A stretch of DNA of 64,000 nucleotides from Gracilaria domingensis (Eukaryota; Rhodophyta; Florideophyceae; Gracilariales; Gracilariaceae), in NCBI GenBank assembly GCA_022539475.1, contig VCMS01000114.1, positions 155,431 to 219,430 on the forward strand. Reading direction: 5' to 3'. Shown piece after piece: positions 9,615 to 64,000 of the stretch (position 1 is the stretch's first letter; each line of letters begins with the position of its first letter). The notes beneath the pieces were generated by a model. It did no database searches. It was not told the DNA's origin and saw only the letters and a program-made list of their open reading frames with translations. The translations under genes and the position numbers were made by a program.

Positions 9615-10432
9615 TTACAAAACATTGTCTCTTGTATCATTTGTTACTGGAGTCCTATATGGTGGCACTGGACCAGGAAGAATTTTATCCATCTCTTCCG
9701 AAAGGTTCCGATCCGTAACATGCTCGGACCCCTGTTCCCTCGCAGGCGTTAATGACGCATTAGGCTCTGTAGCGTTTGTTGATAAGGTTTGACGAACTTC
9801 GTTGCGGTGTTCAGGAGTTGTCTCAGCGCCAATCTGCCTCTCATTTGGTTGCGTAGATGCACTGCCTCCGTACTTGCGATCACGACTGAGCGTTTTCTTT
9901 TTCAGCATGTTAGCAGCCCAATGAACTTCTGCCATACGCAATATTCGAAAATGGCGCTCTATCTTGGAGCGCAGATCGACGACAAGCTACGGATACTCCC
10001 GCACAAACGTCTTGTAAGTAAGCTTACCATCATCCGACACTTTGTGAACGGCGTATATGTACTCTCGAATGCATCTTATAGCTGCGCATACAAATTCCTC
10101 TCTCAAGGGAACGTTCTCAATGTACTGAAGGGTCTGAAAGTTTGCCATCTTGCCGTTGAATATGTCAGGCATTCTGCGCTGAGAACCTTTGTTTAAAGTG
10201 CCACTCTCATCGGAGCGGCAAAACTCAATCCGAGTTGAAATGGGAAGCACCCGCTCTTCGAAACGCGATGCATCGCCGCTATTTTTTGCAATAGAAGAAG
10301 TACTCTGTGTGGGAGGGTTCGTTGTAGGATAATGTTTGTAGAGTGGTTTTGCATGCAAAAGGTGATGGAAGAGGAGTAAACGGACTCCCAAAGTCGCAGT
10401 ATTGGTCGTGGGGATTTGGAAAGGGTGTTCAT
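9615..10432 (-). pseudogene. Decayed copy of the transposon accessory gene (ORF1-like)
   Basis: Read on the minus strand, the segment from about 10085 down to 9870 is one frame with a single in-frame TAG. It includes GKLTYKTFVREYP, then LVVDLRSKIERHFRILRMAE and VHWAANMLKKK. This aligns with residues about 141-202 of the intact accessory protein at 50243-51841 (GKRTFRSIKSEFG, then QNHWVITEFIKKA). It lies upstream of, and divergent from, a decayed Tnp2 transposase, exactly as in the intact element. A further frame (10193-10432) may be its N-terminus. The shared order makes common descent of the whole two-gene unit likely. Confidence 0.6.
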
Positions 10433-10439
10433 CCGAGGT

Positions 10440-13400
10440 AGACGGGGTCGAAGATGGGGTGATATCTAACCAAATTCGGCGGAGTACAGTTTCGTTTCGT
10501 TTTGGCGTGAATGATGATGTTCAGAGTCGGAACTGGATACTACCTGTAACTGACATATTGGCTTCGATGCCGACGCTATCAGATCATTGGCCAGCTTTAC
10601 CATCGGAGCAACATCATGTACTCCATATACCCAACCCTGTTGATCACAACAATGAAGATGCTAATATTGTCAGTGACCGGGCGGTAGACAACGGTAATCG
10701 ATGTGATGTACACGTCGAAGCAATTGAAAAAACGAAAACGGCTCCGTGTCCGCAGATGGAACACTGGATGATGCAGATCACCGTAATGTCGATATTTCGT
10801 CAGGGGAGTTGTGTTCTTCTGCGAACCAAAATAATGGAGAACGTTTAGAAAGTCATGGAAGTGATTGCTCAAAAGTTTCACGGCATCTTTCTTTAGCATC
10901 ATGGTAGCATTCGATTGGTACGGCGCAGACTCTCCCAGAGAGATGAATTGATGTCCGGATGATATCCCCAAGATAAGCCATATGAGAATTACGAAACCTG
11001 AAGATGTCCATATGATATACGTAAATGATGCTCAGATGATGCATAAAATATACCCAAATGATAACCGCCTGATACGCATATGATGTACGAAGAGATGTCC
11101 ATTGGATTTTGTGATGTCCAAATGATGCACCGTGGATTTCCGGACATCCATGGAACATATCTTGGTGCATCATATGAATATCTTTGAAATTGTTTTTGTA
11201 TATCCAAAAAACATGTCAAAGGCATCAACTAGGCGCATCCAAAGGGGTACCACGGCATATCATTCGGATATCCTGGATGCGCAGAAGATATCCAACTGAT
11301 ATCCTGCAGATGGACATCCATTGCGCATCACTTTATCTCACAGGGTCTCTCATATGCACTGACGGACTCTTTAAAAGAGACTGGAGCAAAAACGACTGCT
11401 GAAGTTACTGTTCATAGTTGAGAATGGAGGTCTATCTGAGAATCACGCTTGGAGACGTCCTGCCACCAATGTGATTTCGTCCAGATTTAGCTACGACTCT
11501 AGAATGAACTTCATCAGGAGAGGAACAGGCGTCAGACGGTTTTATGGAGTAATGGGCAGGGAATGACATGCTCCAGTTTTCGATAGAGATTTCAGTAATG
11601 TGTCCTGCCCTAGTAACACCTGTAGACTTTCGGTATCAGGCAGTCACAAATACTGGTACAGGCTAGTCTCCGACCAGATTGGAGCGCTATGTCGTTAAAA
11701 GGACACTTTTAACTCTATTCTGGACGGCTGCAGAGTGGCGTATCAAGCCGTTGGTGCTAATATAGTGAACTACACTGACCTGAACGACTACTACAATGGA
11801 CAATATTTCAGGGATCGACATCGAGAGCGCTTAAGAACATGGGATGCGGAAAAAAATTGTATGTCTTCCTATCCTTCTCTGCCGATGGCGTTGAAGTATT
11901 CAAAGAGCGAAGGATGAAAAGATCCTTGTGGCCGCTGATGTTTACTGTCCTGAACTACGGCCTCGATCGGCGCTTCAATGCATCAAACGTTATCTTGTGT
12001 GGCTTCGTTCCCAGATCTCATGACAATGGTATTTTTGACACATTTTGGATACCATTGGTGAATGATATAAAATGTTTGGAGAACGGAGTGAGGATGGAAT
12101 GATATGACGGGAAGGTGAGAACAGTGTTTGCCTACTTATTATTTGTTACAGCAGACTGGCATGCAGCGAGCAAGTTGCTGGGTGCGAAAGGACATAATGC
12201 CGAGTTTCCATGTAGAAGGTGCCATAAGCAGGCTCGTAGAGCGTCAGCAGCTGGCACGTATTAGTGGATGTTAAGTGAGGCCAGAAATCTTGACATAATT
12301 CGAACATCTCGTGCTCTTTCAAGCCCTCCTTCGAACTATATTGCATCAGAATGCCTCAGGCCCAGGACAGGTGCTCACACGGCACTCACTTGGAGCCAGA
12401 TCGAACTGGCACCGAGCAAGGCGAAGAAAGAGAGAATAATGCGAAACACAAGAATCAAACGGAGGCCATTACTGGCAGCGTTGGATATCGATGTTTTGAA
12501 ATGTTCTCCATACGATCCCATCTATCTATGGCTTCAAGGGTGGGTGAAGCATTTGGTATCTCTGTGCACAGGTTCTCACCCGAAGTATATTAATACTTCA
12601 TCTACCTATGTAGTAAGAGCGGAGGGCATGGCGGCCATAAACGGATCGCTGGCTACTGGATTTTACGGAATACCTTCATCATTGGGAAGGCCTCTTGAAT
12701 CATTTGCATATATTGGCGGGTACAAGGCGGAGGACTACATGAACTTTGCTTTGTATTATGGCACCACTGTTTTCAACAAAGAATCCATTGACCATAGAAT
12801 AACAACGTTGTGGTCTTTAACTCGGAAAGTGACGCATGTATTATTTCATACGAGCCCCACGATGGACGATGTCGGTCGCGTGTAACAGTGGTTCAGCACG
12901 GCACATTTTCTTCGCTCAGCTCTTCCATACCTGTGACGCTGAATCCTTTTGTCTCACCCCCACTACACATGCAATTCTGCATCTTCCGCAGATGATGCGA
13001 GAATGTGGGCCTCTTCGAAATATTTCCCCAGTTTCTGGTACAGCGGGTGGCAGATGTTGTGGCAGATATCAGGAGATCTCTACAGCACCCTGAAGCCAAT
13101 CTTTTCCACAAAACGCATACTATATTTGCATTTCACATGTTGAATGGTGGGTATAGAAGTGGTCAGCAGCAGACGTCAGCGGATGCAGAAGATCCATTTT
13201 TCAGTTCCAATCAGTACCGCACACATTCCATCGATTCCGGAATGGAGTCAGAATGTCTCTCTGTGTCACACTACGGCTCAACTCGAGTTGCCTCTTCCAC
13301 AGAACCACGTATAGGGCTGACTGTAGTTGGAAAGAGCACAGAGCGGGGCGGAACAGAACGAAAACATCAGAGTGTGCACTACGCTCAGTCGCTGCTGCCA

Positions 13401-13950
13401 ATAACATGCTATGATGTCAATGTCTCCAGGTTACTCTTGTTCCCATTGGCTACAATCAAGTGCAACAATAGTTCATTCGGAATCGAGAGTCATACTGAAT
13501 TTCAAATGCGAGTGCGACAAGAACTTCACAGGGCACGACAAAGGTGCTGGGTTGCAGCACATTTTGATCATGGAGGATCCAGTATCTCTCAGCGCTCTGG
13601 AACTTTACAGCATTCATTTGAACTGCGTGGACGAGATTTGGGAAGCACATATTCCTTATCGAAGACCGGGCGAACAGATACAGCTCCACAAGAAGCTTCC
13701 GTATGTGAGTGTACATTGGCAGTACGGACTCATCCTAGACTCCCAGAGTGGTCTTCCTTACAGTCGTCGACAACAGAATCAGCGCCGGGGAACATTGCGC
13801 GATACTCGCAGCAGCGTTGCGGATATATCGTGTATCAAGCGCCATGTAGGATACCTAGATTTCGACCTGCGTCGTGTCTTTCTTCATCCATTGCATTATC
13901 AATTCGCCACGTCGAGAAACGTATGAACTATTCTGGGTGGACTGCTCTGA
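10440..13950 (+). pseudogene. Decayed Tnp2-type (CACTA-like) transposase
   Basis: Pieces in different frames follow the 1019-residue transposase at 52384-55443 from end to end. Before the MITE the N-terminal part is polar and poorly conserved. After it come KYWYRLVSDQIGALC and LNDYYNGQYFRDRHRERL (intact copy: SFWFLKMSSALRGLC, DYYHSATFFRLHESTL), then SADGVEVF with RFNASNVILCGFVPRSHD, FVTADWHAASKLLG, a WLQGWVKHLVSLCTGSHPK segment, LTPTTHAILHLPQMMRECGP, and finally VHWQYGLILDS. Many stops and frame changes interrupt it, and a 412-bp MITE sits inside the coding part. Protein divergence from the intact copy is large, so it is an older or different subfamily. Confidence 0.85.
10934..11345. mobile_element. 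MITE-412 inside the decayed transposase (TSD TCT)
   Basis: The element starts CCCAGAGAGATGAATTGATG and ends with the reverse complement of CCCTGTGAGATAAAGTGATG. It is flanked by direct TCT repeats (10931-10933 and 11346-11348). Inside, short motifs of the type GATGTCC or GATGATATCC cluster in the left half and their inverses (GGACATCC, GCGCATC) in the right half, as expected for sub-terminal transposase-binding repeats. No coding capacity is seen. Transposase reading resumes on the right-hand side. Confidence 0.85.
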
Positions 13951-48122: not shown

Positions 48123-48128
48123 TTACCA

Positions 48129-49270
48129 ACGTCTGTCTCTTGCAGATGCTAGTTTTTGGCGAGGGTCGTCCAGAAAGTGGCAAGGGTCGTCCAGTAAATT
48201 TTTTGAAAAAATATCGAGATCAATTATTTCAAAATTTGAAGATAATTGCTTGGGTCGTCCAGAATCGCTGTGCAGTAAATACTGGTGGGTTTTCCACTCG
48301 TGCTAGTTCTTTAGTCGAGGGCTACCTGAACGGTATTTCGCGAAGTCTAGGTTCAGTTTCCATTAAGGTGCACATTACACGATACCTTCTGCGGAATAAT
48401 ACCCTGCAACGCATGGAATACTGTTGCTAGTACAGATGATGTCCATTATGAAATCATACCGTTTTATTCGTATCTATTCTTCTATCGACCGTTTTTGCTA
48501 ACCACTACTTCGCTATATTACATATACCATTTCCCCATGATGAAGCCAATGTAGGCGCAATCTGCGGCAGATGCCGCAGAGGGCACCTCCACCGAAGTGC
48601 AGTATCGGTAGAACACATACGCACTCCGAGAGGATGAGGCGCGAAGCGCCTCATCCTCTCCGTTCCTCATGTAGGGAACCATGCCCAGATGCATGGTTCC
48701 CTACTTAAGGAACCTGCACCTGAAACTCGTGAGCTACGTCCGCATCAAAATTCGTTTACCTGTATACGCAAGCAGAAAGTATCCATAAGTTAGTCAAAGA
48801 TCCGTTGGATACATTTGAAATGCGATGGAACGTACCATTGATAAAACAAAACAGAAACATTGCGCTAGAAAAGTCGAGGGACCTAGTAACTCGCAAAAGG
48901 AAGAAGAAGAAGGAAAGGGATCGGTTAGATTACCAGCCCACCATCATCGTAAAGCGCAAAAGGTGTCGAAGCGAGAACTCACAAGCAAGGGCACCAAGAA
49001 TGCCCATGCAGCAAACATACCGCAAGATGCGATAAACGAAAGAGCAGCCTATGTCCCAACCAAGTACCAGAATCGTCTATCCCGAACAGTCGGAGATCCA
49101 AGATCGCCAAGGAACCAACTTGTTTTGTTGCGCTATAGGCTCTAGCTTCTCGCGTTTTGCGCTACTTTTGAAAAGTCGCGCAAGAGGCGAAACTAGAGCC
49201 TATGGCGCAACGAAATGAACCATTCGTCGCGTACTTACAGTCGTCGCTTTGGGTTACCAGGTTCCTGTTT
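48129..49270 (+). repeat. Leader repeat R1, copy C, cut by the Tnp2 element
   Basis: Matches copy A from ACGTCTGTCT through both hairpins (48629-48704) to TTTGGGTTACC. At 49270, after GTTCCTGTTT, similarity to copy A (42180-42200) stops abruptly and the Tnp2 element begins with CCCTGTG. The transposase part expected after R1 is not seen, so this copy is truncated or its remainder has been displaced. Confidence 0.8.
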
Positions 49271-50242
49271 CCCTGTGGGCCATTTTTGCGCCCTATATAT
49301 GGCCGAAATAGGACCACCATAAGGCCAACATGATACGTGTATATTTGGCTCAAAACATGGCCAAAATATGCCCCAAAAAGTGCCATTTAGATGAGTCCAA
49401 TAAATGGCCGCATAGGACAGGGCAGAAGATGGACGAAATGTGCACCAAATAGATCCTCAAAAAGGGGCCTAATGAAGCACAAGATGTGAACAAATAATGT
49501 TCGAGATGCCGTCCGTTTTTTGGGACAATGACTGCACGAGAAGAGTACGAAAGAAGTACTGAGAAGATCTCCCAAGACTGGTCAAAGACGGCACGTATTG
49601 TGACCAAAGCCTAGAGAGCATATGAGTCCAAAAGCAGTATAATTTCTGCCCTAGAGATGTCCAAGAGAGGCGTTCCGTACCCATCCCACGAAGGTCTTAT
49701 ACATGTCTTTCTTATAGTCCCCAAGCAGACAAAATCTGTTCGTAAACGAGACAGGAAACCGATATTTCTTGTCCAAGATGAGGGCTTATGTTGGCCATTT
49801 AGTACTATGAAAAGGTTCTAAAACACGTCTAAGAGAGTAAAATTAGTACAAACTTTATACCAATGTGTGTACCCTATAAGAGCAGGTACAGTACAAAGAA
49901 GTACTTTGAACAGTGCAAAATGAGATTGGAGTAAGGACAGATTGAAAGTTCTATGTTAGCCATTGGCTAACAATCCTGCCCCTAGTGCAGCGATGCATGG
50001 GATGGTCGGAATTATCTTAAAACTGCGGCAATACCATGAAGCAGCAGCACCGAGACCAACGAGCTTTGAGGTAACTGTACTTCTGGTAAACAAAGGGATG
50101 AAGGAATCATGAGATTTTGGCTGGTTAGAACGTTTCGAACACGCGCAGATCGTCGGGTAATAAGATGTGACTATCTAACTCACGAGAGAATTGCTCAACG
50201 ATGTGTCGGGGTGTTCGACGATGATAAGTGGAAATCTAACCA
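49271..50242. repeat. Left sub-terminal region of the Tnp2 element
   Basis: Recurring TATGGCC, AAGGCCAACA, CATGGCCAAAATATG, AAATGGCCG and GTTGGCCATTTAG motifs in both orientations occur between 49271 and 49805, and TTAGCCATTGGC at 49954. No gene is supported; minus-strand frames near 49162-49684 are repeat-derived. Confidence 0.55.
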
Positions 50243-51841
50243 TCAACGTTTTGGGTGTCGGCGGGCTCCAGTGCGATCTGCGCTTGAACTTCCACGACGT
50301 GGGTTTGTAAACTTTGTGGGACGTCCTTCCTCCGCTCGCTCAGCTCGACGACGTTGGTTTGGTGGGCTCACATCCTCGACGCCACTTTCTTCCGCGGAAA
50401 CCTCGACATCTCTCCTGCGCTTCCTACCCTTTCCCCGCCGGCGTCGGGCAGGTTCCTTCGATGACGGCTGACGGAAGCTTCTTCCGCCATGCTTGCGACC
50501 GCGCGTAGCAGAACGGGACGGAATAGACTCTACCGCTTTCTCCGTTTGATCTACCATCTTTCTCACAGTGGCAGATATATCAACGTGACCTTCCGATGAA
50601 CCTTCGCTAAGCACTTCTCCGTCATTTATGGATGAGGGACCATTGGACTCGGAATACTGATCAGAGCGCTCTCGTGTAACTGCCACGTCTTTCCCCCTTC
50701 GCGAAAGCATCCCATTAGATGCGATTGGAGCACGACTGATGCTCCCACCACTTGCAGCATAAGCTCTGTCCGAGAGATTTCCTTCAGATAAAACAAGTTG
50801 AAGCGTATCACCTGACACATTTGGCTCGTGGGCAACGGCGTCATTGCTCGCTTGATCAGTGGACTCACCAGTACTGCCGTGCTGATCAGTTCCATTGGAA
50901 GAATGTCTCTGCAATGGGACACGGAGAGCCCCACTGCCATGCCCGCCATCCTGTTCGTGACCCGCAGTTTCATCTTCCGCTTGACCCCTAGATCGAGCCC
51001 TTCTGTCTCCTTCGTTGCTGTTAACGGAGGGCGTGACTGTTGTCGAATTCAATCGCGGTTGGCGTTCAGGTTCAACAGGATTCGACGCTCTCTCACTGGA
51101 ATGTGCTGGCATCGCTGCTGTCAGGTTTGTGTTCGGATCAGTACCAACGCGACTCCTGTTCCCACCATCACCTAAAACTCTCTTTGTCCCGCGCTTCTGT
51201 TCCTCAGCCTTCGCCTTCTTATCTTGTTGTATAGCTTTTTTAATGAACTCTGTGATAACCCAGTGATTCTGAGCGGCGGCCAAAACGGGGAATGTGCACA
51301 CCAGGTTTCGCTTCAGCTGAAAGATTTGTGGGCCGAACTCACTCTTAATGGACCTGAACGTGCGCTTCCCACGCTCTAGCCCAAGACGGTGGTACATAAA
51401 CTGACGGATTCTGTCCTTTATCGCATTCGCTATCTCTGGATAGATAGGATAGTTGTCATCAACTGGGCGGTTGTCAGTCATTTTCTCCTGATACAGGCGG
51501 TTGAACACTACTCTCGCGGAGAGTAGTGCACCAGTCGGGAACCCAGGCCTGTCATTCTCTTTCATTTTGCGTTTCGAGGATGCGCCTGGAATACTCACCG
51601 AGTTTGCTTGAAGTACTTCGAGGTTGGCAGTCGGTGTTGGAACTCCAGAAGGAGTACTTGCCACACGTGCAACACGAGCCGTGGCATAGTGAGAAGCTCT
51701 CTCTGCACGAGATTGGACTTGTTGCTGCACCGAGTACGCATTTCTTTGGCCTCCGGCAGCATCCTCTCTCGGGCTCACCGAAGTGTGTTCACCGGCGAGG
51801 AGGCTGTCTGCGGTGACGTTGTTCAGCGTACGTGAACCCAT
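50243..51841 (-). CDS. Transposon accessory protein (ORF1), new family
   Basis: An intact 532-codon frame divergent from the transposase. The first 130 residues are polar. Residues about 131-205 form a conserved-looking globular part (YPEIANAIKDRIRQFMYHRL, FRSIKSEFGPQIFQLKRN, AAAQNHWVITEFIKKAIQQD). The middle is low-complexity and acidic/polar, and the last 100 residues are very basic (ARRRRGKGRKRRRD), suggesting nuclear localisation or DNA binding. The globular part recurs in a decayed gene placed the same way at 9.6-10.4 kb. By position and basicity it could play the role of TnpA in plant En/Spm elements, which binds sub-terminal repeats, but I see no sequence similarity to TnpA; the role is inference. 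Confidence 0.7.
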   Translation of the reverse strand: MGSRTLNNVTADSLLAGEHTSVSPREDAAGGQRNAYSVQQQVQSRAERASHYATARVARVASTPSGVPTPTANLEVLQANSVSIPGASSKRKMKENDRPGFPTGALLSARVVFNRLYQEKMTDNRPVDDNYPIYPEIANAIKDRIRQFMYHRLGLERGKRTFRSIKSEFGPQIFQLKRNLVCTFPVLAAAQNHWVITEFIKKAIQQDKKAKAEEQKRGTKRVLGDGGNRSRVGTDPNTNLTAAMPAHSSERASNPVEPERQPRLNSTTVTPSVNSNEGDRRARSRGQAEDETAGHEQDGGHGSGALRVPLQRHSSNGTDQHGSTGESTDQASNDAVAHEPNVSGDTLQLVLSEGNLSDRAYAASGGSISRAPIASNGMLSRRGKDVAVTRERSDQYSESNGPSSINDGEVLSEGSSEGHVDISATVRKMVDQTEKAVESIPSRSATRGRKHGGRSFRQPSSKEPARRRRGKGRKRRRDVEVSAEESGVEDVSPPNQRRRAERAEEGRPTKFTNPRRGSSSADRTGARRHPKR

Positions 51842-52383
51842 TCTGATAGAAACAAGCTTTTGAATGCAAAACCGAGCTCGTCGTCAGTTCCAATGACGCA
51901 CGAGAGGCACTTCTGACTCTTCCCGTGAAAGCTCGCGTGGTATGAAACGTACTCCAGGCGGGAAACTATGGGTATCCGCAGCTTGGGGATGTGCAAGGCG
52001 GAAGGATAGGGAGGAACAGTTGACGTATTCCTGGATGAGAAGGGGGACAACAAGCTGGTCACTTGAGCTGTCCAAGCTGTTCGTCGGAGGGGCGGAGCGG
52101 ATTCATTTGGAGAAAGCCGGGAGAGAGAAGACGGGGGAAGCTAAGTAGAGAGATGTATCGAAGAGCCCGCGCTCTCTTGAGCAGAATGAAATGGGTTGAA
52201 CCGAAACCTCCTCAAATAATTTTGAAAACCTAAAAGTTTTCATCGCTCTTTGAAGGCCGTGATTTTCCAAACTGATCAATAAAAGTTCTTAATGGGGGTA
52301 GTATCCCTCCCTTTTTCATTGCTCCAAGTACTCCCTGTTGCAAAAATTGCATAATCGTCGCGTTAAATCGGTAACCTCACGTC
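51842..52383. promoter_or_regulatory. Divergent promoter region between ORF1 and the transposase
   Basis: 541 bp between the two start codons, without other supported genes. It must hold the promoters for both. No clear TATA box was identified. Confidence 0.45.
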
Positions 52384-55300
52384 ATGTTTGCTGACGAACG
52401 GAGTAGACGCAAACGTTGTAGATGGGAGACCAGTGGTGATGACTTTGCTCCGTTTCAGTTGCACGAAGACTACAGCCCTACTCCATCCGAGCTGCAGGTA
52501 GCGCAAGAAGAAATACTGGAGCCAATAGTTCGAAGAAGATGCAGATGGGAGACGGTGAGCGTAGCACCAGTGATTTCTGAGAGGGAAATCGAAGTTCAAG
52601 AAACAGCGCCATCAGCCTGCGGCGAAGATCTTGGAAGAGATAACAGTCAGTACCTTCCTCGTACACAGAACGAGAGTGAAGCAGTACAAGATATGGTACA
52701 CAACTCCCCGTCTTCAGAATTCAGGTTTGTATCCATAGATCGAATTCATGACCAGAACAATGAACAGCTTGAAGGAGGTTCCATTGTGGAACACAATTCT
52801 AGAATCGTTGGATCCAGTGCTTTGGACGAGTACTCGATACGTTCAGTTGAGAACGTCGATGATCAAGATATCTGGAACATTTCGATTTTCGATAACGAGG
52901 AACACTATGCCAGTTCACATAGCAGCATGTACCCAAAGAGTGAGAAGCAAGAAGTTTTTGAAAGACTCGCGGCCTTCTTGTACACTGCAGAGATGTCGAA
53001 CGTTTCACAAAGGGCGCTTCAACGGTTGCTTAACATCAAACCCCTATCATACAAGTTTTCACTTAAGAGCCTCAACTCCTATTCAGTAAAAAAGTCGTTG
53101 CTGTGCAAGTCCAGAGCCGCAATGTGTCCTCATGGGCATGCTGCTCAATGTGGAAGCGCAAGGAAGATGAATTGCTGCCCAGTATGTAGTGAACCGTTCA
53201 AGAGAGAGTCGTTTTGGTTCTTGAAAATGTCTTCCGCACTAAGAGGTCTTTGCAATGCTAAGGAGACGTTCGAGCAACTCATGAATGGCTGTCGGCGAGC
53301 TTGGATCAGTATTTCAACTCCAAACGAACAAGACCCTCCTCATGATTACTACCACAGTGCCACCTTCTTCAGATTGCATGAGTCAACTTTACAGAATTGG
53401 AAAGAGAATGAGGAGATATTGGTATTCTTCACGCTTTCGACTGATGGTTTCGAGTGTGGAAAGCGGAGAGACGGCTCTGCATTCTCAACATGGCCAGTGG
53501 TCTCAACAATTTTGAACTTTGACCCAAAGGTACGAAGCAAAGCATCAAATGCAATCATTCATGCCGTTATTCCAGGTAGTCATGATTCAGAATACTTCGA
53601 CACTTTTCTTGAAGAACTTGTACAAGACATTCGGGAACTTGAAAATGGAATACGGATATCATGTTACGATCGCAAAGTGCGGACAATAAAGGCCTTTCTC
53701 TTGTATTTCACGGCAGATTGGCCAGCGGCTTCCAAGGTGTTTGGATACGTGGGGCACAACGGTACTATCTTCTGTCGCTTTTGTCTCAAGACAAAGACGT
53801 ATATAAGACAATGTAGAAATAACTGTGCCGTTCCTGAAATAAGACCTAGAGACATCAAGAACCTTTTCAGATCTGGTAACGCTCGAAACATTCGGAATTT
53901 CATTGAAATGGAGTGCGTAGGAAAACGCCAAAGCAAAGATGTGATGCTGACATGGCGCAGGATTTCGCAGAGACAGCTTGATACGAAAGAGAAAAGAAGC
54001 ATAATTGCAGAAAGTGGTATCAAGAGACGCTCGGTGTTATCCCATTTGAAGCTCGACTATGTGTTCTCCTTTCCATATGATGCGATGCATCTCGTTTTGC
54101 TGGGTTGGGTGAAACATGTTCTTCGTCTGGTGACAGGATCGCACTCTAAACTGGAAGGGGTCTCCCCAAAACCCAGTTATTGCATATCAGATGATACTTT
54201 GGAGAAGATCAACAAGTCTATGAGAGAATCGACCAATGCTGTACCCAGTTCATGGGGAAGATCAATTTTTTCTCTGGAGCACCTTTCCAAGTACAAAGCA
54301 GAAGATTTGCGGCGTCATGCTGAGATGTACTTAGTGCCATTTCTTCACCGATATAGGGTGCGAAAAGACGTGGTTCTTCTGGTGGCGGCGACAGCAAGGC
54401 TTGTATCGCTTTCTTTCTCGTATGATTGTGGACCCGAACAGGTACACGCTTTGAAATCTGCAGTTGAGGAGGCGTACGTTCGGTTTTGTAGCCTATTCTA
54501 TCAATCTGAGTCTGATTCATTTTGCTTCACACCAACCACGCACGCCATACTTCATCTGCCTGACCTTCTTAGAGAATGTGGACCACTTCCGCTCTCTTCG
54601 CAGTTCATTGTGGAGAGACTACTAGGCGAAGTTGGAAGAAGGGTACAGAGTAGTTGTCATATTAGCTCCCACATATTTCACAAGAGCTTTAGACTTCTCG
54701 CCCTCAAGCTTACGAACAATGGCATCGCACCAGAGGCAGAAAATGAGTATATGAGTAATGTCGACGACGAGTACTCTTCAAGTACAATACGAAACAGTGG
54801 GCCTATAATTAACGATATGGCTGCTGGTGTTCGATGCCACGGTGTTGGATCCCCATGTCGAAATATGTCACATGATTTGAGAGGAGCTCTGAATCGGTTC
54901 TTGTGGGAAAACTTCAACGTCCCACATTCGTCATTCACTATCAAGTCTTCAAAGATGTTCGGAAGTGCAACCGTACTGAGAGAGAGTGGAACTATTTCCT
55001 TGGACACAAGGGATAACTTCAACGCGCGTATTTCCAAGCAAAAGTGTGCCCGACAAAAGTACCATGTTGCTGCCCACTTTGTACCACAGGATGCACAACC
55101 TGACAGAGACATTCGGGAAAGAGATCTGTATTATGGTTTGGTGCACCAGATTTTCGAAGTCGTTCTGGAGCTTCATGAGAATAGCAGAGGAAGAACAATA
55201 AGAGCCGTGTTCATCGGTGTGTCATGGCAATATGGACTCATTGTCGACTCAACCAATGCAGTCATCTATACGGATGATCATCGACACACTGTGAGATCTG

Positions 55301-55443
55301 TGGAAAGTATTGGTTGTATTGATAGGGTCATAGCCGTGATAGATATTTTGAGACGGTATTACTTCGTAGACAGGAAGCCGAACGACTATACCACTCGGAA
55401 CGAAGTTCACGAGGTCCTTCAAGGCGTTCGAAAGAGAATATAA
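52384..55443 (+). CDS. Tnp2-type (CACTA/EnSpm-like, Transposase_21) transposase
   Basis: An intact 1019-codon frame. Residues 1-230 are acidic and polar with two CRWET repeats. Around residue 247 is a Cys/His cluster (CPHGHAAQCG ... NCCPVC), probably a zinc finger. The catalytic region starts near residue 350: LSTDGFECGKR, STWPVVSTILNFDPKVRS, IIHAVIPGSHDSEYFDTFLE, FLLYFTADWPAASKVFGYVG and FCRFCLKTKT, which follow the D...WP....N.P..R......P G pattern of Tnp2 proteins. Near residue 563 is FPYDAMHLVLLGWVKHVLRL, then CFTPTTHAILHLPDLLRECG with FIVERLLGEVG, and a C-terminal WQYGLIVDS. The enzyme would cut and rejoin element ends and leave 3-bp duplications. It looks capable of activity. Confidence 0.9.
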   Translation: MFADERSRRKRCRWETSGDDFAPFQLHEDYSPTPSELQVAQEEILEPIVRRRCRWETVSVAPVISEREIEVQETAPSACGEDLGRDNSQYLPRTQNESEAVQDMVHNSPSSEFRFVSIDRIHDQNNEQLEGGSIVEHNSRIVGSSALDEYSIRSVENVDDQDIWNISIFDNEEHYASSHSSMYPKSEKQEVFERLAAFLYTAEMSNVSQRALQRLLNIKPLSYKFSLKSLNSYSVKKSLLCKSRAAMCPHGHAAQCGSARKMNCCPVCSEPFKRESFWFLKMSSALRGLCNAKETFEQLMNGCRRAWISISTPNEQDPPHDYYHSATFFRLHESTLQNWKENEEILVFFTLSTDGFECGKRRDGSAFSTWPVVSTILNFDPKVRSKASNAIIHAVIPGSHDSEYFDTFLEELVQDIRELENGIRISCYDRKVRTIKAFLLYFTADWPAASKVFGYVGHNGTIFCRFCLKTKTYIRQCRNNCAVPEIRPRDIKNLFRSGNARNIRNFIEMECVGKRQSKDVMLTWRRISQRQLDTKEKRSIIAESGIKRRSVLSHLKLDYVFSFPYDAMHLVLLGWVKHVLRLVTGSHSKLEGVSPKPSYCISDDTLEKINKSMRESTNAVPSSWGRSIFSLEHLSKYKAEDLRRHAEMYLVPFLHRYRVRKDVVLLVAATARLVSLSFSYDCGPEQVHALKSAVEEAYVRFCSLFYQSESDSFCFTPTTHAILHLPDLLRECGPLPLSSQFIVERLLGEVGRRVQSSCHISSHIFHKSFRLLALKLTNNGIAPEAENEYMSNVDDEYSSSTIRNSGPIINDMAAGVRCHGVGSPCRNMSHDLRGALNRFLWENFNVPHSSFTIKSSKMFGSATVLRESGTISLDTRDNFNARISKQKCARQKYHVAAHFVPQDAQPDRDIRERDLYYGLVHQIFEVVLELHENSRGRTIRAVFIGVSWQYGLIVDSTNAVIYTDDHRHTVRSVESIGCIDRVIAVIDILRRYYFVDRKPNDYTTRNEVHEVLQGVRKRI

Positions 55444-56092
55444 GGAGGGGGACACGAATCCAGAACTAATGATCGATGTCGAAGCTAGGCGCGTTACGGG
55501 GAATCCAAAAGTAGTGAGAATCAAGTAGTGCAGTGCGGGCCGTGGATCCTAACCACGAAAACGACGAAATAGCCTTCATCATGAAGCTCGAGGTGTTAGA
55601 GTATGTTTTGTTCCGGTCTTCAGAAAGCGAAAGAGTAAATGCACGCCAAATTCCGGCGTTATTAAGCCCAAGTTACTTAGTGCCGCGTTTCACAGCTTCG
55701 CATACCGAACTGCGGCAAAGATAAGCGCCAAGGATGCTATCTCGTTCAAGAACAAGGCTTCTGGAACAAACTGTAGAAACAGAAGTCGCGGGTGGGTAGA
55801 GGGTATCCAAACCTTCACAGAGCCACGCACCACGAAGCAAAGACTCTAGGGAGTGCGTGCTGCGACTGCCGCGAACAACCGATGCAACCAGGTACTGGGT
55901 CCGGGGGTGGTGCGGCTCCCAGCGACGATGTCACGATCGACCTGCCGCAGCTCCAGCGACCGAAATAAATTCTCTTCTGCGTGCCTGGAAATTACATTCT
56001 TCACGCAGCGCCCATTAGTTCTCCTCCTGATAGAATTACAGTATCCCGCTACCCAGACATTCCAAGTGACACGCGTAAGAAACGCTTCCGTT
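55444..56092. other. Spacer between transposase and ORF3
   Basis: No supported gene; small plus-strand frames at 55533-55724 and 55853-56098 lack domains. It probably contains the transposase terminator and the ORF3 promoter. Confidence 0.45.
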
Positions 56093-56127
56093 TTGTAACA
56101 TGTCCCACACGATGGGACATGTTACAA
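56093..56127. promoter_or_regulatory. Perfect 15-bp inverted repeat upstream of ORF3
   Basis: TTGTAACATGTCCCA, loop CACGA, then the exact complement. It ends 50 bp before the preferred ORF3 start at 56178. It could be a protein-binding operator for an element-encoded protein, a hairpin in the ORF3 leader, or a terminator for the transposase gene. Confidence 0.6.
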
Positions 56128-56177
56128 GTTGGTGGAGATCAAGAAGAATCAGGTTGGAATTCTCATGCTGTGTGAAA

Positions 56178-57062
56178 ATGTCTTCGTCAGAAGAGGTATA
56201 CAAAGAATGGACCGTTCCCGACGAGGTCAGTTTTCTGATGAGGAAGATACTAATTCCAAAGCACACGAACAAGTTGGTGCTGGACAGTTCGACCATGAAA
56301 AACAGTTCGAGGATAATTGAGAAGCACGAACTTGCTGTCGGTCCGGGTAATATTGCAAAGCTCCCTGGCTCTGAAGCAACAAGAAAACGGCAGTGGCGGG
56401 AGAAAGGGCAGAATCGAGTCATGGAGAACAAAAAGCAACGCACGAGATACGCAAAACAGCGAGCATCAGAGTCCACAGAGGAAAGAGCAAATCGACTTAA
56501 GAAACGCCGTGAATGGTATGCCAAGAGAACGCAAATGATGAAGAAAGAGACATATAATCAGTGTGAAAACGAAGAGGAGCAGTCTGTTTGTAGTGCGCGA
56601 AGCTCGTCAGAGCTATCTGTGCAGTGCTCTGTGGAGGAAGATGACGCTTTTAACCATACGCAGAATGAAAGAGTGAAAGGCAAGATTTCTACAAGCGCAG
56701 TTTGTTCTAACACTTGCAGTGACGCAACAGTCAACAAGGATGGAGAATGTAGGCGAGAACGAGCTCCAGAGGGCCCAAACTTTCTGTATGAGATAATCGC
56801 GGAAACGCAGACTGTCCATGTTTTCCATCATCTGCTTCTTCCTGTTCCTCGAGTTACATCAGACTGCAATGTACTCGATATAACAGAACAACCCTTGAGT
56901 CAACCGGACATTGGCAACAATAATTCCCATCTGCGTGAAGATGGAGCACTGAACAAAAGCTCGATATCACAGATTTGTCGTGCTGCGCAAAATCGTAGCG
57001 CTGAGGCACAGCAGATATTGCATGATGTCTTCGGCGCCGATGTCTCGGACGACGAAATTTAA
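56178..57062 (+). CDS. Transposon ORF3, small basic protein with one STPR-like repeat
   Basis: The frame is open from 56100, but the ATG at 56178 gives a cleaner start (MSSSEEVYKEWTVPDEVSFL), because the first 26 codons would include the palindrome. Residues about 90-150 are strongly basic and helical, and RYAKQRASESTEERANRLKK resembles a single unit of the STPR repeat (a 23-residue Arg-rich unit seen in some mobile-element and DNA-binding proteins). The remainder is acidic and Ser-rich, and the tail has SISQICRAAQNRSAEAQQIL. A DNA-binding or regulatory role in the element is plausible but unproven. No counterpart was identified in the decayed copy. Confidence 0.6.
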   Translation: MSSSEEVYKEWTVPDEVSFLMRKILIPKHTNKLVLDSSTMKNSSRIIEKHELAVGPGNIAKLPGSEATRKRQWREKGQNRVMENKKQRTRYAKQRASESTEERANRLKKRREWYAKRTQMMKKETYNQCENEEEQSVCSARSSSELSVQCSVEEDDAFNHTQNERVKGKISTSAVCSNTCSDATVNKDGECRRERAPEGPNFLYEIIAETQTVHVFHHLLLPVPRVTSDCNVLDITEQPLSQPDIGNNNSHLREDGALNKSSISQICRAAQNRSAEAQQILHDVFGADVSDDEI

Positions 57063-57129
57063 CAGGTCATTTCAAGAACCTAATGTCAAAGCTTAACATA
57101 AACATGGCAACTGCACTCCTGTCTCCGAG

Positions 57130-57868
57130 CAAGGAATAGATACCCAGACATCTTCATTTTCATGGCGAACGTTCTGCTCGAAGAGATGCCGTTTTATCTA
57201 CGGTAGCGCTCTGCAACGTCGTGTCTGACGCCATGCTCTTCTTGGGGCTGTGGCACTGCTCTGGCTCCAAGTGTAACACCTCCCGCCTCTTCTCCTCTGT
57301 GTCGGCTTGCAGCCAATTCAACGCGTACCACACCTTGTTCATCAGGTTCAGCTCGTGGTGTTCAAAAAAACAAAACGTAAGCAGCGTTCTCTAACATAGA
57401 AATCAATGGAGTTCTGCGGTCTCTGCATATGTGTCGCAGAGTTCGTGGGATGCTCAAGATCGCAGGATGGTCTGCGACATGACGAATGGCGTCAATCGAT
57501 ACTGAATCAGGTGCTAGTGAGCTCTATCACGCTCAGAAGTCCTCAGCGGATGGAAGTCGAAGCTGCCTTGAAATTTCAAAAGCCCGAAAGGTATCCCAAT
57601 TGTTTGACCAGTCACCCTTCAAGAAAGCCAAAGCAAATCGAAGCGACAAAACCGCGCCCCGAAATTGCATGACAAGCCCATGAACTAAATCGCTTCTGGG
57701 ACATTCGGACTGTTCGATTTGGCTCAGAGCCGCCTTATATCAGCCCAGCAGTTTTGAAGCCATTTCAATAGAGAGGATTGGGTGATGGCGGAAGGAGATT
57801 GAATGAACGGTCCACATGAAAGAGTGTCCTAGAGAGGGCAACGCGGAGGCAGTTTCGACGTGATTTCT
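57130..57868 (-). pseudogene. Unassigned minus-strand remnant between element and RAV1-like gene
   Basis: Minus-strand protein-like pieces include VWYALNWLQADTEEKRREVL (57342-57240) and, further upstream, RFALAFLKGDWSNNWDTFRA (57640-57580). These might be the end of the RAV1-like gene or of another protein. No family is recognised, and stops interrupt all frames. Confidence 0.3.
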
Positions 57869-60800
57869 CTATTTCTTCTTCAGTTCCCGGCCTTTCTCCA
57901 CCTTGGAATCAAACAATTCAAGCGCTGCATATATTAGAGTGACAGCGTAATCCACCTGATTCTCTTTCACAGGCTCTAATACCGCACATTCTACAGCTTT
58001 CACCGTTCTTTCAAGCTTCAGAGGACTGTCCTTAAGGTCCTGCACATCAGATATGAATGGATCCTGAAGACTGCTTCCCGATGGTCCGGAACTACCCGCA
58101 CCAGCGTATGACACTGCCCTCGTTTAGAGCGTTTCAACGGTTGCTAGCAGCATCGCACCATGGGTTGTTCCAACATGACGCTTTGAAGACACTCTTCCTA
58201 CCTTCTGACCAGGCGCTTCGCCGTCGGTCCTTATGATATCAAAGCTTACCATGAGCGTGAACTGACTTCCGTTTCCGAGCAATGTACGAACCGCCTTGCA
58301 ACGACATTCCCGCAACAACAACTTCGCAGTCGATGTTACTCTCATTGGAGGCCGACTGCAGAGCGCATTTGCGTGAGCCATTGCGTGATCAACAGCAGGA
58401 ACTGAGCCAGAAAGCACTCTGTCCACATCTGAAAACTCCTTTCCTATCGGTACGTACTTGGCTTGGTTCGCACTTTTCAGCGCTGCTCCGTGCTGGCCAT
58501 TAAACCACTGAGCTAAACTCTTTTCATGATCATCTCCATTTTTCTGCGCCCCAGAGAAAATGCTTTGAACCGTGTTCTGCAGGTGTTCCCGGTCCTGAAT
58601 CATGCAAGCGAGAAATACCGCCAATTGATTGTCTTTCATTCGTGACCTGAAAAGGTTGAGTGCGCTTTGTACCTGCGAAAAGAGAAAGAAAAGTGCAGCA
58701 GCAATTTCCATTCGATGTTTCGACAGCAAAACAAAGACGTTCTTCCTAGCAGCTGGTTCTTTCTCTTCCGCGCAAGTGACGGGATAAGAACGGAGCCATA
58801 CGAGAGTTCTTTTGAGCCCTGTATAGAGCAGATAGAGTCCTTCTTCGGCCCGTAACGGTGCACCACAAGGCGGCGCCGTCAGGATTGCGGGTAGAGTTAA
58901 AATCAGTTCTTGCAATGCGCTCCGCTAACCGTTTACAACCGGATACCGTGCTCACTCACCAACCCCCGCCCAAAGCCTTTGCACTGTCCCACAAACTTGC
59001 CCTTTCCCTCGAAAAAGTTTGAGCAGCAGTACTTTGAGGAAGAAAGAAATCCAGAATTGCGTCAGATGACGACGAATGTACTGCATTTGACACAATTGAA
59101 AGTTGCAAAGAAGTGCCCCTTGAAAGCTCTCTGTAACAAGATGCCAAAACAGCAATCCTTGCGCCAAGAACATCCTAGGAACTTAGCATAGTCCGCACTG
59201 ATGTTATCGCTGTCGCAATAGCCGCCAAAACGCTCTGCTCCGAGCGAGACAAGCCAGCTAAAATCACTACTCGAAGTCTCGATGCAAGCTTTGACAAATC
59301 TGGCACGCCGTGCTCATCTTCAGCAAGGTCAACGTTTTCATCAGATTGAAACTCTCTCGCAAACTGAGCTTCTGACTTCTCCATTAATCTGGCGAACAAA
59401 TTCTGCGAGCTCTGAATACCAAACGGATTCGCGGAGAAACTGTTCCCATTCATTCAATGTCCTCTGTTGCAGGCGCACTTTCGCGATCAGAAGTTAGTGT
59501 AGATAAGGATGGAGGTGGGGCGACGAGGCTACGCCCTGCCCCGTACGACCTTTCCGACGCATTTCGCAAAAGCATGCTCCAAACAAACTCATGAAGGTCT
59601 TCTAGAGAGGACACAAGTTGCCACGCCCGACCTCCGGTTAGTAGTTGAGCAATCAGACCCTTCGCAGGACTGTATCCCGCAGCATTTGAGGTATAGTTAG
59701 CTGAATAAGTATCGTGCTTGGAGACACCTAAATCACAAAGACCTCTCCCTGAGGAAGCCACATAAACGCCCTTACCAATTTGTTTCAACGAGAACTTTTG
59801 AGAACCCAAATGGCCCAGAGAAACTTCATCTGCCTGTAGGCATTCCCAGGGAGAGCCGAGTTTGCGCCGGTATCGCTGAAAAGATCCGTCTCCTCTCGAA
59901 GTATTCAGTGAGAAATTAGTGTCTTGATCAAACCCAATGGAGGAAGTGAGGCCTGCCGATATGGCTCGTCCTCTTTTCCCCTGTCAGGGTCGCTTGGTAT
60001 TCGACATGCCATGTTACAGCCTCCAACGAGTCGCGGGACCACACACAGCTATTCCAGACTTGTGCAAGCTCATGATGCGAGAGCCCCCGTACAGAACTTC
60101 GACTTCCTTGACGGCACCCAGAGCCGAGGGCGGTTGAAGATGCGCAAGTTGCCGCAACCAGATCACGCTTTCGTCGGCTTCCTCTTCGTCGCTGTCTTCA
60201 TCTGCAAAACCATAAGAGGTTGCAATCTCAGATTCACCGGTGATGTAAATGAAAAGGCTGCCGTCCTCTCCACCAGTCACGAAAATATGATGGTCAATGT
60301 TTGTTAGTTCCCCCGTACTAATACAAGTTACGCAATCGTGCCTGCTGCCGCTAACACGGACTATGCAAGATTCAAGTTTGACCTCCCTTCGATGCCGTCG
60401 AACAGCACGCCACAAACAGAGGCGGCCATCTTCCCGAACCCTGAGAACAGCGCACTTGGCTGCAATCCCCAAGTCACCTTTACCCATCGGCATTGGGACA
60501 GATATCAAATGCGACACGGACTCTACAACACCGCGCGTTCTAGCGCGACACACTGCGATCTGTTTTCCGTACTGGACGTCCTGCCGGAGGTGAAATCGGT
60601 CTTGCTCACGAAATTGACAAACTGAAACAAGCGAAGAGACCCATGAGCTGCATCGCACGTAAAGACGCCCATCTCCATCGGTTGCGCGACGTGAACTTGA
60701 TAGGACAGAAAGCGACGGCTGTATGAGGTCCTGGAAGCGCCGCAATGGATGTCAGTGACTCCCATGCGCCAGAAGACACATTTGTGTGCCATATCAACAC

Positions 60801-62413
60801 GTCGCCGCTGCGACCGCGACTCGCAAGCCCACCCATTGCTGCTTAGCATGGTTGACGAGCACGGCTCCGTGGCGACGATGTCCACCACTGTCGACGTATG
60901 CCCAACTCCAACTCGGGCACGGCAAACGGCCGGCATATCAGATGTAGGGCAGATATCGTAGAGCGCGAGAAAGGGAATGCCATGCCGGACGGCCAGGACG
61001 AAGATGTCGACCAGGTTGGGCGGTTCCGGCGGTTCCGAACTACGCAAGCGGCGCTCCCGTTCGAAATGGCATACGACTTGACCAAGCCAATCTTCTCTTG
61101 GAGGAGGTAGTAAGAGGAATGGGCGCCACCGATTTCATAGCCGCCACAGCAACATCACGCAACGGGAAATCCGGCGGGTGAGCCTCAAAGTCGATCTCGG
61201 CCTCGAGGCCATTCATAGGGTCGCCATTCGCGGGTTCAAGGCATGCAAAGTAGGCGCGTGGACGTTCATCAAGTCCGCGAGCCCTCCACACACGCGCGTC
61301 ACTGCCCGCGATGCGCAAAACCCAGTGATAGCAGCGGCTGGGCTTGGGCGCCGTTCCTTCCGCCAGAAAGGGATGCGAAGCATTGGTGGCCATTGCATCG
61401 CCCTCGTAATCGGCCACGCCGCCGCCGCCCCACGACAGAAAGGCGGCGCCCGCGCGCGGGGTTCGCTCTACGTGCGGGCTGCGCGCAATCTCCTCGATCC
61501 ACGACTCGGGGCCGACGGACAGCGTTTCGCGCTCGTTGTACGGTTTGTTGCGCGTGGAGGCGCGCACCCAAATGCGGATGGTGCCGTCTCGGTCGGGGGT
61601 CATGAGCGCCTGGTTGCCGCCGCCGTGCTTCTTCCAGTCGGGGTTGGAGATGTCGAGCGGCCGTGCACAATCTCGGCGCACGGCGCGTGCGAGAGGCTGG
61701 TGGCGATGGCAAACACGTACGAGATGCGCGCGTAGAGGCAGGAGACGGCGATGTAGGAGGCGTCGGGCGACATGGCGGCGAGCGCGAGCGGCAGCGTGGG
61801 GATGCGCTCGCGCGGGACGTTGACGTGGGCGGTGTAGCGCACGGGGCGATACTCAAAGGCGAGCTTCCACACGAAGATGGAGTCGGCGACGGCGCACAGC
61901 ATATCGCCCGCGGCGCTCCACGACAGCGACACGATGGAGTCGGTGACGGGCGCCGGCAGCTGCTCGGGCGCGATGGTCACCTCCGGGCGGTGGCAGTCGT
62001 ACACAAAGCGCAGCTCGCGCGCCGAGGGCGACCAGCCGTCGTACACGACGACGCAGTCGCCAAACGCCACGGCCAGCGCGGCGTCGTGCGCGCGAAACGA
62101 GAGCGCGCTGACGACGCGCGGCGCGGGCGCAGGCGCGGCGCGGCGCGCAGGCGCGCAGCGCGTGCAGATCGGAGCCGCGCGCGACGACAACCTCGTCGGC
62201 TGGGGCGTACGCGACGAGCAGCACGCCGCGGAACAGCAGCGCGTCCAGGCAACCCGAGTGCGACGTGACGGCTGGCGGCAGGTGGTGCGCGACGGAGAGG
62301 CCGCGCGGCGGCGGGCGCAGCGCGGCGGCGAAGCGCTCGTCCTCCGCGTGCTCGCTGTGCGCCGCGGCGCTCAGCTGCGACGGGTAGGGCGGCGGCCGCT
62401 GCGCTGGCGCCAT
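57869..62413 (-). pseudogene. RAV1/DMXL (rabconnectin-3-like) WD protein, broken
   Basis: About 4.5 kb of minus-strand pieces in at least nine frame segments. N-terminal WD repeats: SALSFRAHDAALAVAFGDCV and VVVYDGWSP, SIVSLSWSAAGDMLCAVADS, then LMTPDRDGTIRIWV and YHWVLRIAGSDARVWRARGL. A middle part has HHIFVTGGEDGSLFIY. The C-terminal Rav1p_C domain shows KGLIAQLLTGGRAWQLVSSL, LSRSEQSVLAAIATAI, a WDSAKALGGGWWVS region, EGLYLLYTGLKRTLVWLRSY, KNVFVLLSKHRMEIAAALFF and MKDNQLAVFLACMIQDREHL. These match the RAVE/rabconnectin subunit that promotes V-ATPase assembly. The last frame (57869-58114) gives DSPLKLERTVKAVECAVLEP. Repeated frame changes show decay or sequence errors. Divergent from RAD9. 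Confidence 0.8.
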
Positions 62414-62590
62414 GTGCTGCTGCCGCGCGCGCGGATCGCTGCCGCGCGCGCGCGCCGCTCTTTGCGCCGTACTTTGCGGCGCGGCGCGCGGCTGACAGCT
62501 GCGCCGGCTGTAAGGCCGCCTCTCGCTTTAGCGCCAAGCACAAAGCGCAACGCGCGCGCGTCCGCGCGTTAGCGCACCGGCGGGCGGCGC
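62414..62590. promoter_or_regulatory. Short divergent intergenic region (RAV1-like / RAD9-like)
   Basis: 177 bp between the two apparent start codons, very GC-rich with many GCGCGC steps and no TATA box. It fits a bidirectional promoter of a compact genome. Confidence 0.5.
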
Positions 62591-63300
62591 ATGGATCTGC
62601 ACGCCTCGGACGCGGCGTGCGTGCGCGCGCTGGCACGCATCTTCCACGCCGCCGCCAAGCTGGGCGAGTTTGCGCAGCTGACGCCGACTGTGTCGGCGCT
62701 CGGGCTGCGCCTGCTCAACGCGTCGCAGACGCGTTCGCGTCCTTCCAGCTGAGCCCGCTTTCTTCTCGCATCGTCGCCTGCCGCCGGCCGCGCCGCCGGC
62801 GGGCGCTGCTGCCGCCGCTGCGCTCGCCTGCGTCCGTAGCGTCGCTGCGCATCCCCTCCGCGCCGACTCGCTCCATTTCGTCTTGCGCGTGCGCTCCGGC
62901 TGTGCAAGAAGTCTGCCTGCTGCTCGTCTACGCCGCGTCAGCACCGTGTCGCCGCAGCACCCCAGCTACAGTTTCCGGTGCAGTTCGCGCCTTTCCTCGA
63001 CATTCTCGTCAACTTTCACGTCAAGCTGGGAAGATTACGCTGGTGCTTACGACCGATGCGCTCAAGCTCACCTCCTTCGTCGACGACGACCCTCGCACGT
63101 CATTCTGCGCACCGAGATGACCGTCTCGTTTCCGAGCTCGAGCAGTACAACTTCCGTCGCACCAGCCGGCGCTCACCATCCCTGCCGTCTCTGCGCACGG
63201 CGCTCGATTTTTGCGATCCATTCACGCCCTCCATCACTTCACGCAACCAGGCGACCTGTCCCTCACTTCGACAGCGTAACTGACGATCAAACTCTCTTCC
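62591..63300 (+). pseudogene. RAD9: RAD9-like checkpoint clamp subunit, broken
   Basis: From the ATG at 62591: ACVRALARIFHAAAKLGEFA and LTPTVSALGLRLLNASQT match the first beta-alpha unit of RAD9. After a frameshift near 62733, FASFQLSP continues; then in further frames DSLHFVLRVRSG, FAPFLDILVNFHVKL, GKITLVLTTDALKLTSFVDD, VILRTEMTVSF and SELEQYNF, followed by pieces corresponding to a Phe-rich inhibitor-like loop and the last strand. RAD9 forms the 9-1-1 DNA-damage clamp with RAD1 and HUS1 in the nucleus. At least four frame changes break it. Confidence 0.7.
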
Positions 63301-64000
63301 ACACCCGTTTGTGTTTGCACCAGACAGGAGCAATCCGCAAACCCTCTGCAATCGCGTTGCGCTGCCACTCAGCTGCCTGCCATGAATGGTCCACAGCTAG
63401 CGTGCCCCTTCGCACAGCGATCAAATCACCACGACAATTCGCCAGCCCATCACAGTCCCATGCTGCAGCAGTCGTCTTCATCTAGCAACCACCGCACACC
63501 AATCTCGTCCTCTGCTACGTGTCCGCCACAATCACAACCAAATCAAAACGCTTACATGGAAACGCACAACGCGATCCGCTCCGCACCCTTCCAGACCCAA
63601 GCGGCTTTCGCCAATTATCCGCTCAGTGACAGCCTTGCCGCATCAAGAAGAAACGAAGACTGGAATATGTGGACGCACTCTTTCCGCCGTAGCTACCTCC
63701 CTTCTGCGCTTTAATCGATTTCAGCACACTTCCTCTAGCATTTCCTGCAATCGCCCGCTTCCCACGTCTTCATCAAGTGCTTTTGCAGATCGCGTCATGC
63801 TGCATCGCAAAACTTCGTCTCGAACTAGTCTCATCTTCGTCATCCAACACCTTTTGTCTCTCTCCGCGACTTTCATTGCAACACACACTGCAGATGACAA
63901 ACGAAATTAGCAGCGTTCGCCCAATGCCTGCACTGCATCAATGTTTTTCAACTACATGGTTCGTTTCGAACAAGTCCTAATTCAGTGTTCGACAAGTATC
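63301..64000 (+). other. Possible RAD9 C-terminal tail and flank
   Basis: A 110-codon frame (63382-63714) is rich in Ser, Gln, Asn and His (HHDNSPAHHSPMLQQSSSSS), like the disordered phosphorylated tails of RAD9 proteins. It could be the tail of the gene above or an unrelated frame. After 63714 nothing is recognised. Confidence 0.35.

Follow-up and report, generated by a model that had tools for sequence, protein, structure and literature searches.

Results

Gene content and classification of the element

The stretch of DNA analysed here, hereafter the window, comprises 64,000 nucleotides at the end of contig VCMS01000114.1 (C114) of the red alga Gracilaria domingensis (positions 155,431 to 219,430) and harbors a pair of divergently oriented genes encoding a Tnp2-type transposase and an accessory protein, ORF1 (open reading frame 1). 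This feature is best read as the leftward portion of a giant CACTA-type DNA transposon of ~17.7 kb. The genome searched amounts to 77.9 Mb, and coordinates are those of the window unless a contig is named. Its phycobilisome-linker genes agree with a red-algal host: Pfam family PF00427 has 14 matches above the cut-off, ten spread over eight ordinary contigs and four on C680, which contains a frame of 878 amino acids, and of 14 control genomes Synechococcus alone gave a signal. Linkers of this kind occur in red algae and cyanobacteria. From its left end to the third gene, the element is laid out as follows:

49271..49277 (+): left terminus CCCTGTG, with the same breakpoint base in five other copies with differing flanks
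49271..49520: left subterminal region with repeated GGCC motifs, from GGCC counts against shuffles
50243..51841 (-): ORF1, accessory protein of 532 amino acids (open frame; genome matches)
51176..51604 (-): conserved ORF1 domain, residues 80-222 (alignment of members)
51842..52383: divergent intergenic region of 542 bp between ORF1 and the transposase (from coordinates)
52384..55443 (+): Tnp2 transposase of 1019 amino acids (open frame; Pfam Transposase_21)
56100..57062 (+): ORF3, second accessory gene, 320 amino acids with a basic middle (matches in sister copies)

The ORF1 and transposase frames are both open and lie on opposite strands, as expected from the initial annotation, which had described the two genes as intact and divergent, and the 542-bp spacing between them is identical in four copies of 98-100% identity. 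The transposase matches the Pfam family Transposase_21 (tnp2) with an expectation value (E) of 8.1e-15 and a score of 55 bits, against a family cut-off of 28.6. Residues D354, D445, C465/C468, H720/H724 and E744 were assigned by eye, and the cysteines and histidines fall between D445 and E744, as in the rule for the CMCT motif set out in an excerpt of PMC12730594. On the basis of its transposase, the element is assigned to the CMCT clade. It is not classed as a canonical CACTA element, because its ends, CCCTGTG..CACAGGG, follow neither of the forms that the same excerpt gives for EnSpm/CACTA termini, 5'-CACTA-type or, "in most cases", 5'-CA..TG-3'. The fungal Plavaka elements share the CMCT clade with EnSpm (PMC12730594, excerpt), but their published ends (TGT..ACA, CATCA..TGATG) differ from those found here, and membership in Plavaka was rejected because the Pfam search returned Transposase_21 for the transposase, with no Plavaka match listed.

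Linkage of ORF1 and Tnp2 genes across the genome

A tblastn search of the genome with ORF1 returned 81 matches, corresponding to 75 merged sites. At 50 of these a divergent Tnp2 gene lies 0.5-2.1 kb away (each within 2,077 bp), where ~0.5 would be expected, and transposase sequence is also present at two of the other 25 sites (C340 and C444). The association extends to two further clades of ORF1. The second, found by querying with the decayed ORF1 of the window described below (X placed at its stop), is Tnp2-linked at 28 of 33 sites, the query's own site included. The third matches weakly (E 0.01-0.5) and is linked at seven of nine sites with a near-constant spacing of 1.57-1.61 kb; despite the insignificant E values, this regularity speaks strongly for true relatedness, although several are near-identical copies of each other and hence not independent. 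Counts for these two clades derive from 99 rows, of which the 44 lying outside clade-1 sites were used, leaving 42 after merging. Seen from the transposase, an ORF1-type gene accompanies 85 of 160 merged Tnp2 sites, and a clade-1 ORF1 is present at 37 of the 43 best-scored sites resembling the window transposase (from the best 45 of 388 candidates scored; 50 rows minus seven that were additional fragments of genes already counted). Searched with Pfam tnp2, the genome yielded 148 matches with E no higher than 0.01, including nine under the family cut-off.

The window also contains the remains of a second, older element:

9633..10118 (-): decayed ORF1 relative (tblastn, profile)
11390..13944 (+): decayed Tnp2 gene (tblastn pieces)

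The decayed ORF1 was recovered by tblastn at E 4e-7 in a search restricted to the window, and at E 5e-8 with a profile built without it. For the decayed Tnp2 gene, the best tblastn piece reaches E 2.8e-67, and one piece matches Transposase_21 at E 8.9e-6, just below the family cut-off. The two genes are divergent (10118-9633 on the minus strand, 11390-13944 on the plus strand), which corroborates the earlier observation of a decayed minus-strand ORF1 in a similar arrangement beside a second Tnp2 gene.

Conservation of the ORF1 domain

Alignment of ORF1 members delimits a domain of about 140 residues, in place of the approximately 60 conserved residues first proposed, with nine aligned members showing 55-61% identity to the window sequence. 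The remaining tail (residues 226-532) contains many disorder-promoting residues and basic runs. Between subfamilies, the proportions of synonymous (pS) and nonsynonymous (pN) differences in the domain are 0.86-0.92 and 0.23-0.28, respectively (four comparisons). For the whole of ORF1, the ratio of nonsynonymous to synonymous substitution rates (dN/dS) is 0.30 and 0.36 in two pairs with dS of 0.53-0.63, and 0.46-0.97 across ten pairs of lower divergence (dS 0.006-0.17). When two close pairs were divided by region, dN/dS was 0.44 and 0.31 for the domain and 0.83 and 0.98 for the C-terminal region. Taken with pS and pN, these regional ratios therefore indicate that the domain is constrained by purifying selection and that the tail is loose.

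Pfam searches with ORF1 detected neither a plant transposase-partner domain nor an enzyme domain, and scans of viral and prokaryote contigs detected no ORF1 relatives. The initial claim that ORF1 belongs to no described family holds in Pfam and the PDB as searched, and is limited here to those databases; literature searches, which were not specific to such a protein, yielded no paper visibly describing one. Judging from sequence, ORF1 appears to be a functional and conserved part of the element, as first proposed, a conclusion well supported by its linkage to Tnp2 in three clades and by purifying selection. The adjacency of ORF1 relatives to Tnp2 genes had been suggested as a check on this proposal and is observed in every clade, and neither a majority of unlinked homologues nor a clear match to a host family was encountered.

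Ends and copies of the element

The left end at 49271 is exact: the copies on C53, C261, C237, C117 and C340 begin at the identical base, and the preceding sequence is different in each. At the other side, homology among near-identical copies passes 57100, reaches at least 63726 and then leaves the window, whose end is that of the contig; it continues for 3 kb more in C261, C304, C150 and C418, and to the contig ends in C53 and C237. Of the span first assigned to the element (49271-57100), the left boundary is hence retained, whereas 57100 was rejected as right end, given that copies stay homologous beyond it and that a terminus is found further out on seven contigs. A pattern search located this right terminus, ..TTCACAGGG or a close variant of it, on C150, C200, C261, C304, C333, C359 and C418; it lies outside the window and ends in CACAGGG at six of these seven sites and in TACAGGG on C359, so that the inverted ends comprise 7 bp (CCCTGTG..CACAGGG). 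The complete copy on C261 (6302-24015) measures 17,714 bp and that on C359 ~18.1 kb. Past the right terminus, C304 and C150 are unalike at five sampled points, the first one 0.5 kb out.

Among the matches listed, the transposase is 99% identical in the sister copies on C53, C261 and C237, lies in pieces in C304, and is 90% identical with ten stops in C117. Over the element part of the window, its sequence and the C53, C261 and C237 copies show 99.2-99.6% mutual identity, and the existence of several copies ~99% identical therefore points to recent movement. A second subfamily with clade-1 ORF1 also ends in ..AGGG, in three copies with differing flanks, indicating that CCCT ends are common to both subfamilies. 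Subterminal repeats are present at the left end: its outermost 250 bp contain six GGCC motifs, whereas 5000 shuffled versions averaged 0.6 and never reached six. The right end and other families have a motif only partly in common.

A different terminus, CCCTATAAGAAATTTTTGCGG, was considered as right end and rejected, as it is that of a distinct family of short repeats with one copy near the right end of C246. This family occurs genome-wide, is ~390 bp long in two copies (L046, about 3259-3650; L062, 1144-1535) and is flanked by 3-bp direct repeats (TAA, CAG). A degenerate terminus pattern matched 106 places in forward and 101 in reverse orientation, against 2 and 5 for a control, the first ~100 places being listed; it admits several families as well as the giant element's own left end.

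ORF3 and host-derived cargo

ORF3, a gene absent from the initial annotation, is recovered as a single unbroken match in C304, C53 and C261, and in two pieces in C237. Lysine and arginine make up 31% of its residues 91-160, Pfam and PDB searches returned nothing convincing for it, and at 33 of its 62 merged genome sites a Tnp2 gene precedes it on the same strand. A different gene order is seen on C290, C470 and C263, where Tnp2 sites belonging to another subfamily are accompanied by a weak ORF1-type match at a distance of 1.57-1.59 kb and, further out, by an ORF3-like gene on the side and strand of ORF1.

Between ORF3 and the right end, the element carries DNA copied from another locus:

57380..64000: cargo, copy of C133:68406-75209, 90% identical, continuing beyond the window end
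58127..58924 (-): captured part of a RAV1/DMXL-like gene, C-terminal region (Pfam Rav1p_C, E 3.4e-12)
59178..62714 (-): captured RAV1-like coding stretch, interrupted here; open over 1183-1184 amino acids in C261, C304 and C418

The copy extends to C133:75443, ~7 kb altogether. The counterpart of 58127-58924 sits within an open frame of 2768 amino acids on C133, which is taken as the host gene, and no transposase, ORF1 or ORF3 match falls on C133 among the matches listed. The 1183-1184-residue frame shows 91% identity with the C133 frame over 53-1183; it has no match in Pfam or the PDB, and is called RAV1-like because of the adjoining Rav1p_C match and the common 2768-residue frame. It contains two stops in C150 and is interrupted in the window, C53, C237 and C200, and gap blocks relative to C261 number 14 in the window, five in C53, six in C237 and none in C304. 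These interruptions fit assembly errors near contig ends, although genuine decay could also account for them. In comparison with old copies, over 172-175 codons, dN/dS of the RAV1-like frame is 0.44 (C359) and 0.41 (C157, one stop), and among recent copies it is 0.68-1.16. The C-terminal piece beside this frame has 81% identity with the C133 protein, a value that by our estimate is close to the outcome of neutral drift at 90% DNA identity. Long-term constraint on the 1183-residue frame is possible on these comparisons. In the old copies, C359 and C157, the cargo is rearranged. To the right of the C133-like part, stretches match C28 and C98 at 89-92% identity and one at 74%, possibly representing two further source loci.

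Neighboring features

Shortly before the insertion site, an open reading frame at 47432-48430 (+) has a Core-2/I-branching enzyme match at E 1.1e-4, just under the cut-off. The stretch at ~46-48 kb has a GC content of 65%, and a 120-bp tandem repeat is present at 46171-46407 (two copies, 88% matching). A frame of 401 amino acids at 42741-43946 (+) shows a weak Plavaka match below the cut-off (E 0.022) and is possibly a transposon relic, and an open glycosyltransferase family 11 gene at 22015-22959 (+; E 2.1e-26) is probably a host gene.

Discussion

The best-studied CACTA elements encode a second protein besides the transposase, and TnpA of En/Spm and TNP1 of Tam1 are held to bind subterminal repeats (PMC2613891, excerpt). 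The excerpt ascribes the same role to both and reports no sequence similarity between them, which makes a third, unrelated partner plausible. By analogy, the G. domingensis feature can be interpreted as a CACTA-type element in which ORF1 fills the role of TnpA and TNP1, a reading, with its predicted DNA binding by ORF1, to which we assign a probability of about 0.6. ORF1 is probably a helper for transposition. In this process, the transposase would cut at the short ends, and ORF1, with its domain of ~140 residues and its loose basic tail, would bind the subterminal repeats and either pair both element ends or tune expression, as TnpA does in En/Spm and as has been put forward for TNP1 of Tam1. 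The host DNA may have been copied into the element when it transposed at some earlier time, and carried along since.

Several observations weigh against this interpretation. The termini are CCCTGTG instead of CACTA, and in the single copy with both flanks read, on C246, the element is preceded by ATG and followed by ATC, flanks that are not identical; EnSpm/CACTA elements are characterised by target-site duplications of 2-5 bp. A motif picked post hoc, GGYCAYAT, has three occurrences within 250 bp at the right end but a single one within 300 bp at the left, and each of 14 further ORF1 flanks (1.0-1.5 kb) contains none, one or two. Regarding DNA binding, searches of Pfam with ten members of the ORF1 domain gave sub-threshold matches only (best E 0.021), and CAF1-p150_N (four of the ten members, best E 0.021), HSR (two, E 0.056) and Rap1 Myb (one, E 0.04) were taken as chance. 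A profile search of the PDB with the domain gave nothing significant (best E 0.45), with two integrase entries (E 0.45 and 1.1) likewise attributed to chance, and an AlphaFold model of residues 68-229 from a single sequence (mean predicted local distance difference test score 48.5) is too poor for use and hints at helices only. ORF3, moreover, could be the DNA binder in place of ORF1. Lastly, no transposase was detected at 23 of the 75 ORF1 sites, which may be relics, short contigs or missed genes; no ORF1-type gene was detected at 75 of the 160 merged Tnp2 sites; and many of the linked sites are near-identical copies and not independent.

Other readings can be drawn from the same data. ORF1 could be unneeded for cutting and instead shield the element from silencing or regulate its expression, comparable to the TET/JBP genes of fungal transposons, which have been proposed to help the elements evade methylation-based silencing (PMC12730594, excerpt). 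The divergent placement of the genes around a common 542-bp upstream region suits such a role, which nevertheless strikes us as unlikely, since Pfam searches found no enzyme domain in ORF1 and the association across three clades suits a core transposition role at least equally. Somewhat more doubtful is an exchange of roles, with ORF3 as the TnpA-like DNA binder and ORF1 as a transposase partner or nuclear carrier. The strongly basic middle of ORF3 and its frequent position downstream of Tnp2 speak for it, but its linkage is weaker (33/62 against 50/75 for ORF1), though low-complexity basic sequence may inflate its matches and other gene orders exist. That ORF1 is a host-captured passenger with no role in the element is very improbable: copied host DNA is present in the element and some ORF1 sites lack a detected transposase, but linkage and selection persist in diverged families and largely disfavor this view. 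Finally, the ~7 kb of host-derived DNA common to the copies might suggest segmental duplications of a chromosomal region instead of a mobile element, an explanation left with next to no credence by exact left ends with different flanks, a common right terminus and inverted CCCTGTG ends.

The CACTA-type element favored here has precedents among known systems. Like maize En/Spm and Antirrhinum Tam1, which encode TnpD/TNP2 together with TnpA/TNP1, it combines a Tnp2-type transposase, a second protein and subterminal repeats, and the 17 kb of Tam1 are comparable in size (PMC2613891, excerpt). In those elements, however, the second protein stems from the same unit by way of a spliced transcript, whereas ORF1 is a separate, divergent gene without a Pfam plant partner domain, and the ends read CCCTGTG versus CACTA. 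The soybean Tgmt* element, a 20.5 kb CACTA, is likewise giant and putatively autonomous, with a Tnp2 transposase and a second protein reported in the excerpt as lacking similarity to maize TnpA (PMC2613891), but differs in gene arrangement and ends. As in Arabidopsis Pack-CACTA elements, captured host coding DNA, here the C133 RAV1-like segment, lies between transposon ends and is mobilised in CACTA fashion; Pack-CACTA elements are, however, defined as non-autonomous (PMC8903248, excerpt), whereas here an open transposase and the cargo reside in one element. A close description comes from another red alga, Chondrus crispus, with enlarged En/Spm families of 16-20 kb and 4-5 ORFs (Kojima et al., 2013, as cited in an excerpt of PMC6431247), a likeness drawn by description only. 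The element type is hence already known in outline and is not a new system; with Tnp2/EnSpm transposases, second proteins and enlarged Chondrus En/Spm families all on record, the designation of the locus as the best candidate for a new system was too strong. A bolder proposal, that ORF1 represents an undescribed superfamily acting as obligatory partner of red-algal Tnp2, independent of TnpA and TNP1 and thus a third solution of its kind, and that the giant lineage also keeps the RAV1/DMXL-like frame as a working cargo gene, we regard as improbable.

Little on red algal transposons turned up in the literature searched, and the giant copies described here unite an open Tnp2 gene with DNA copied from a host gene in a single mobile unit. 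The transposases of CACTA elements are conserved and their partner proteins are not. With three clades of one partner family located beside scores of transposases, the co-evolution of partner proteins and element ends becomes testable within a single genome.

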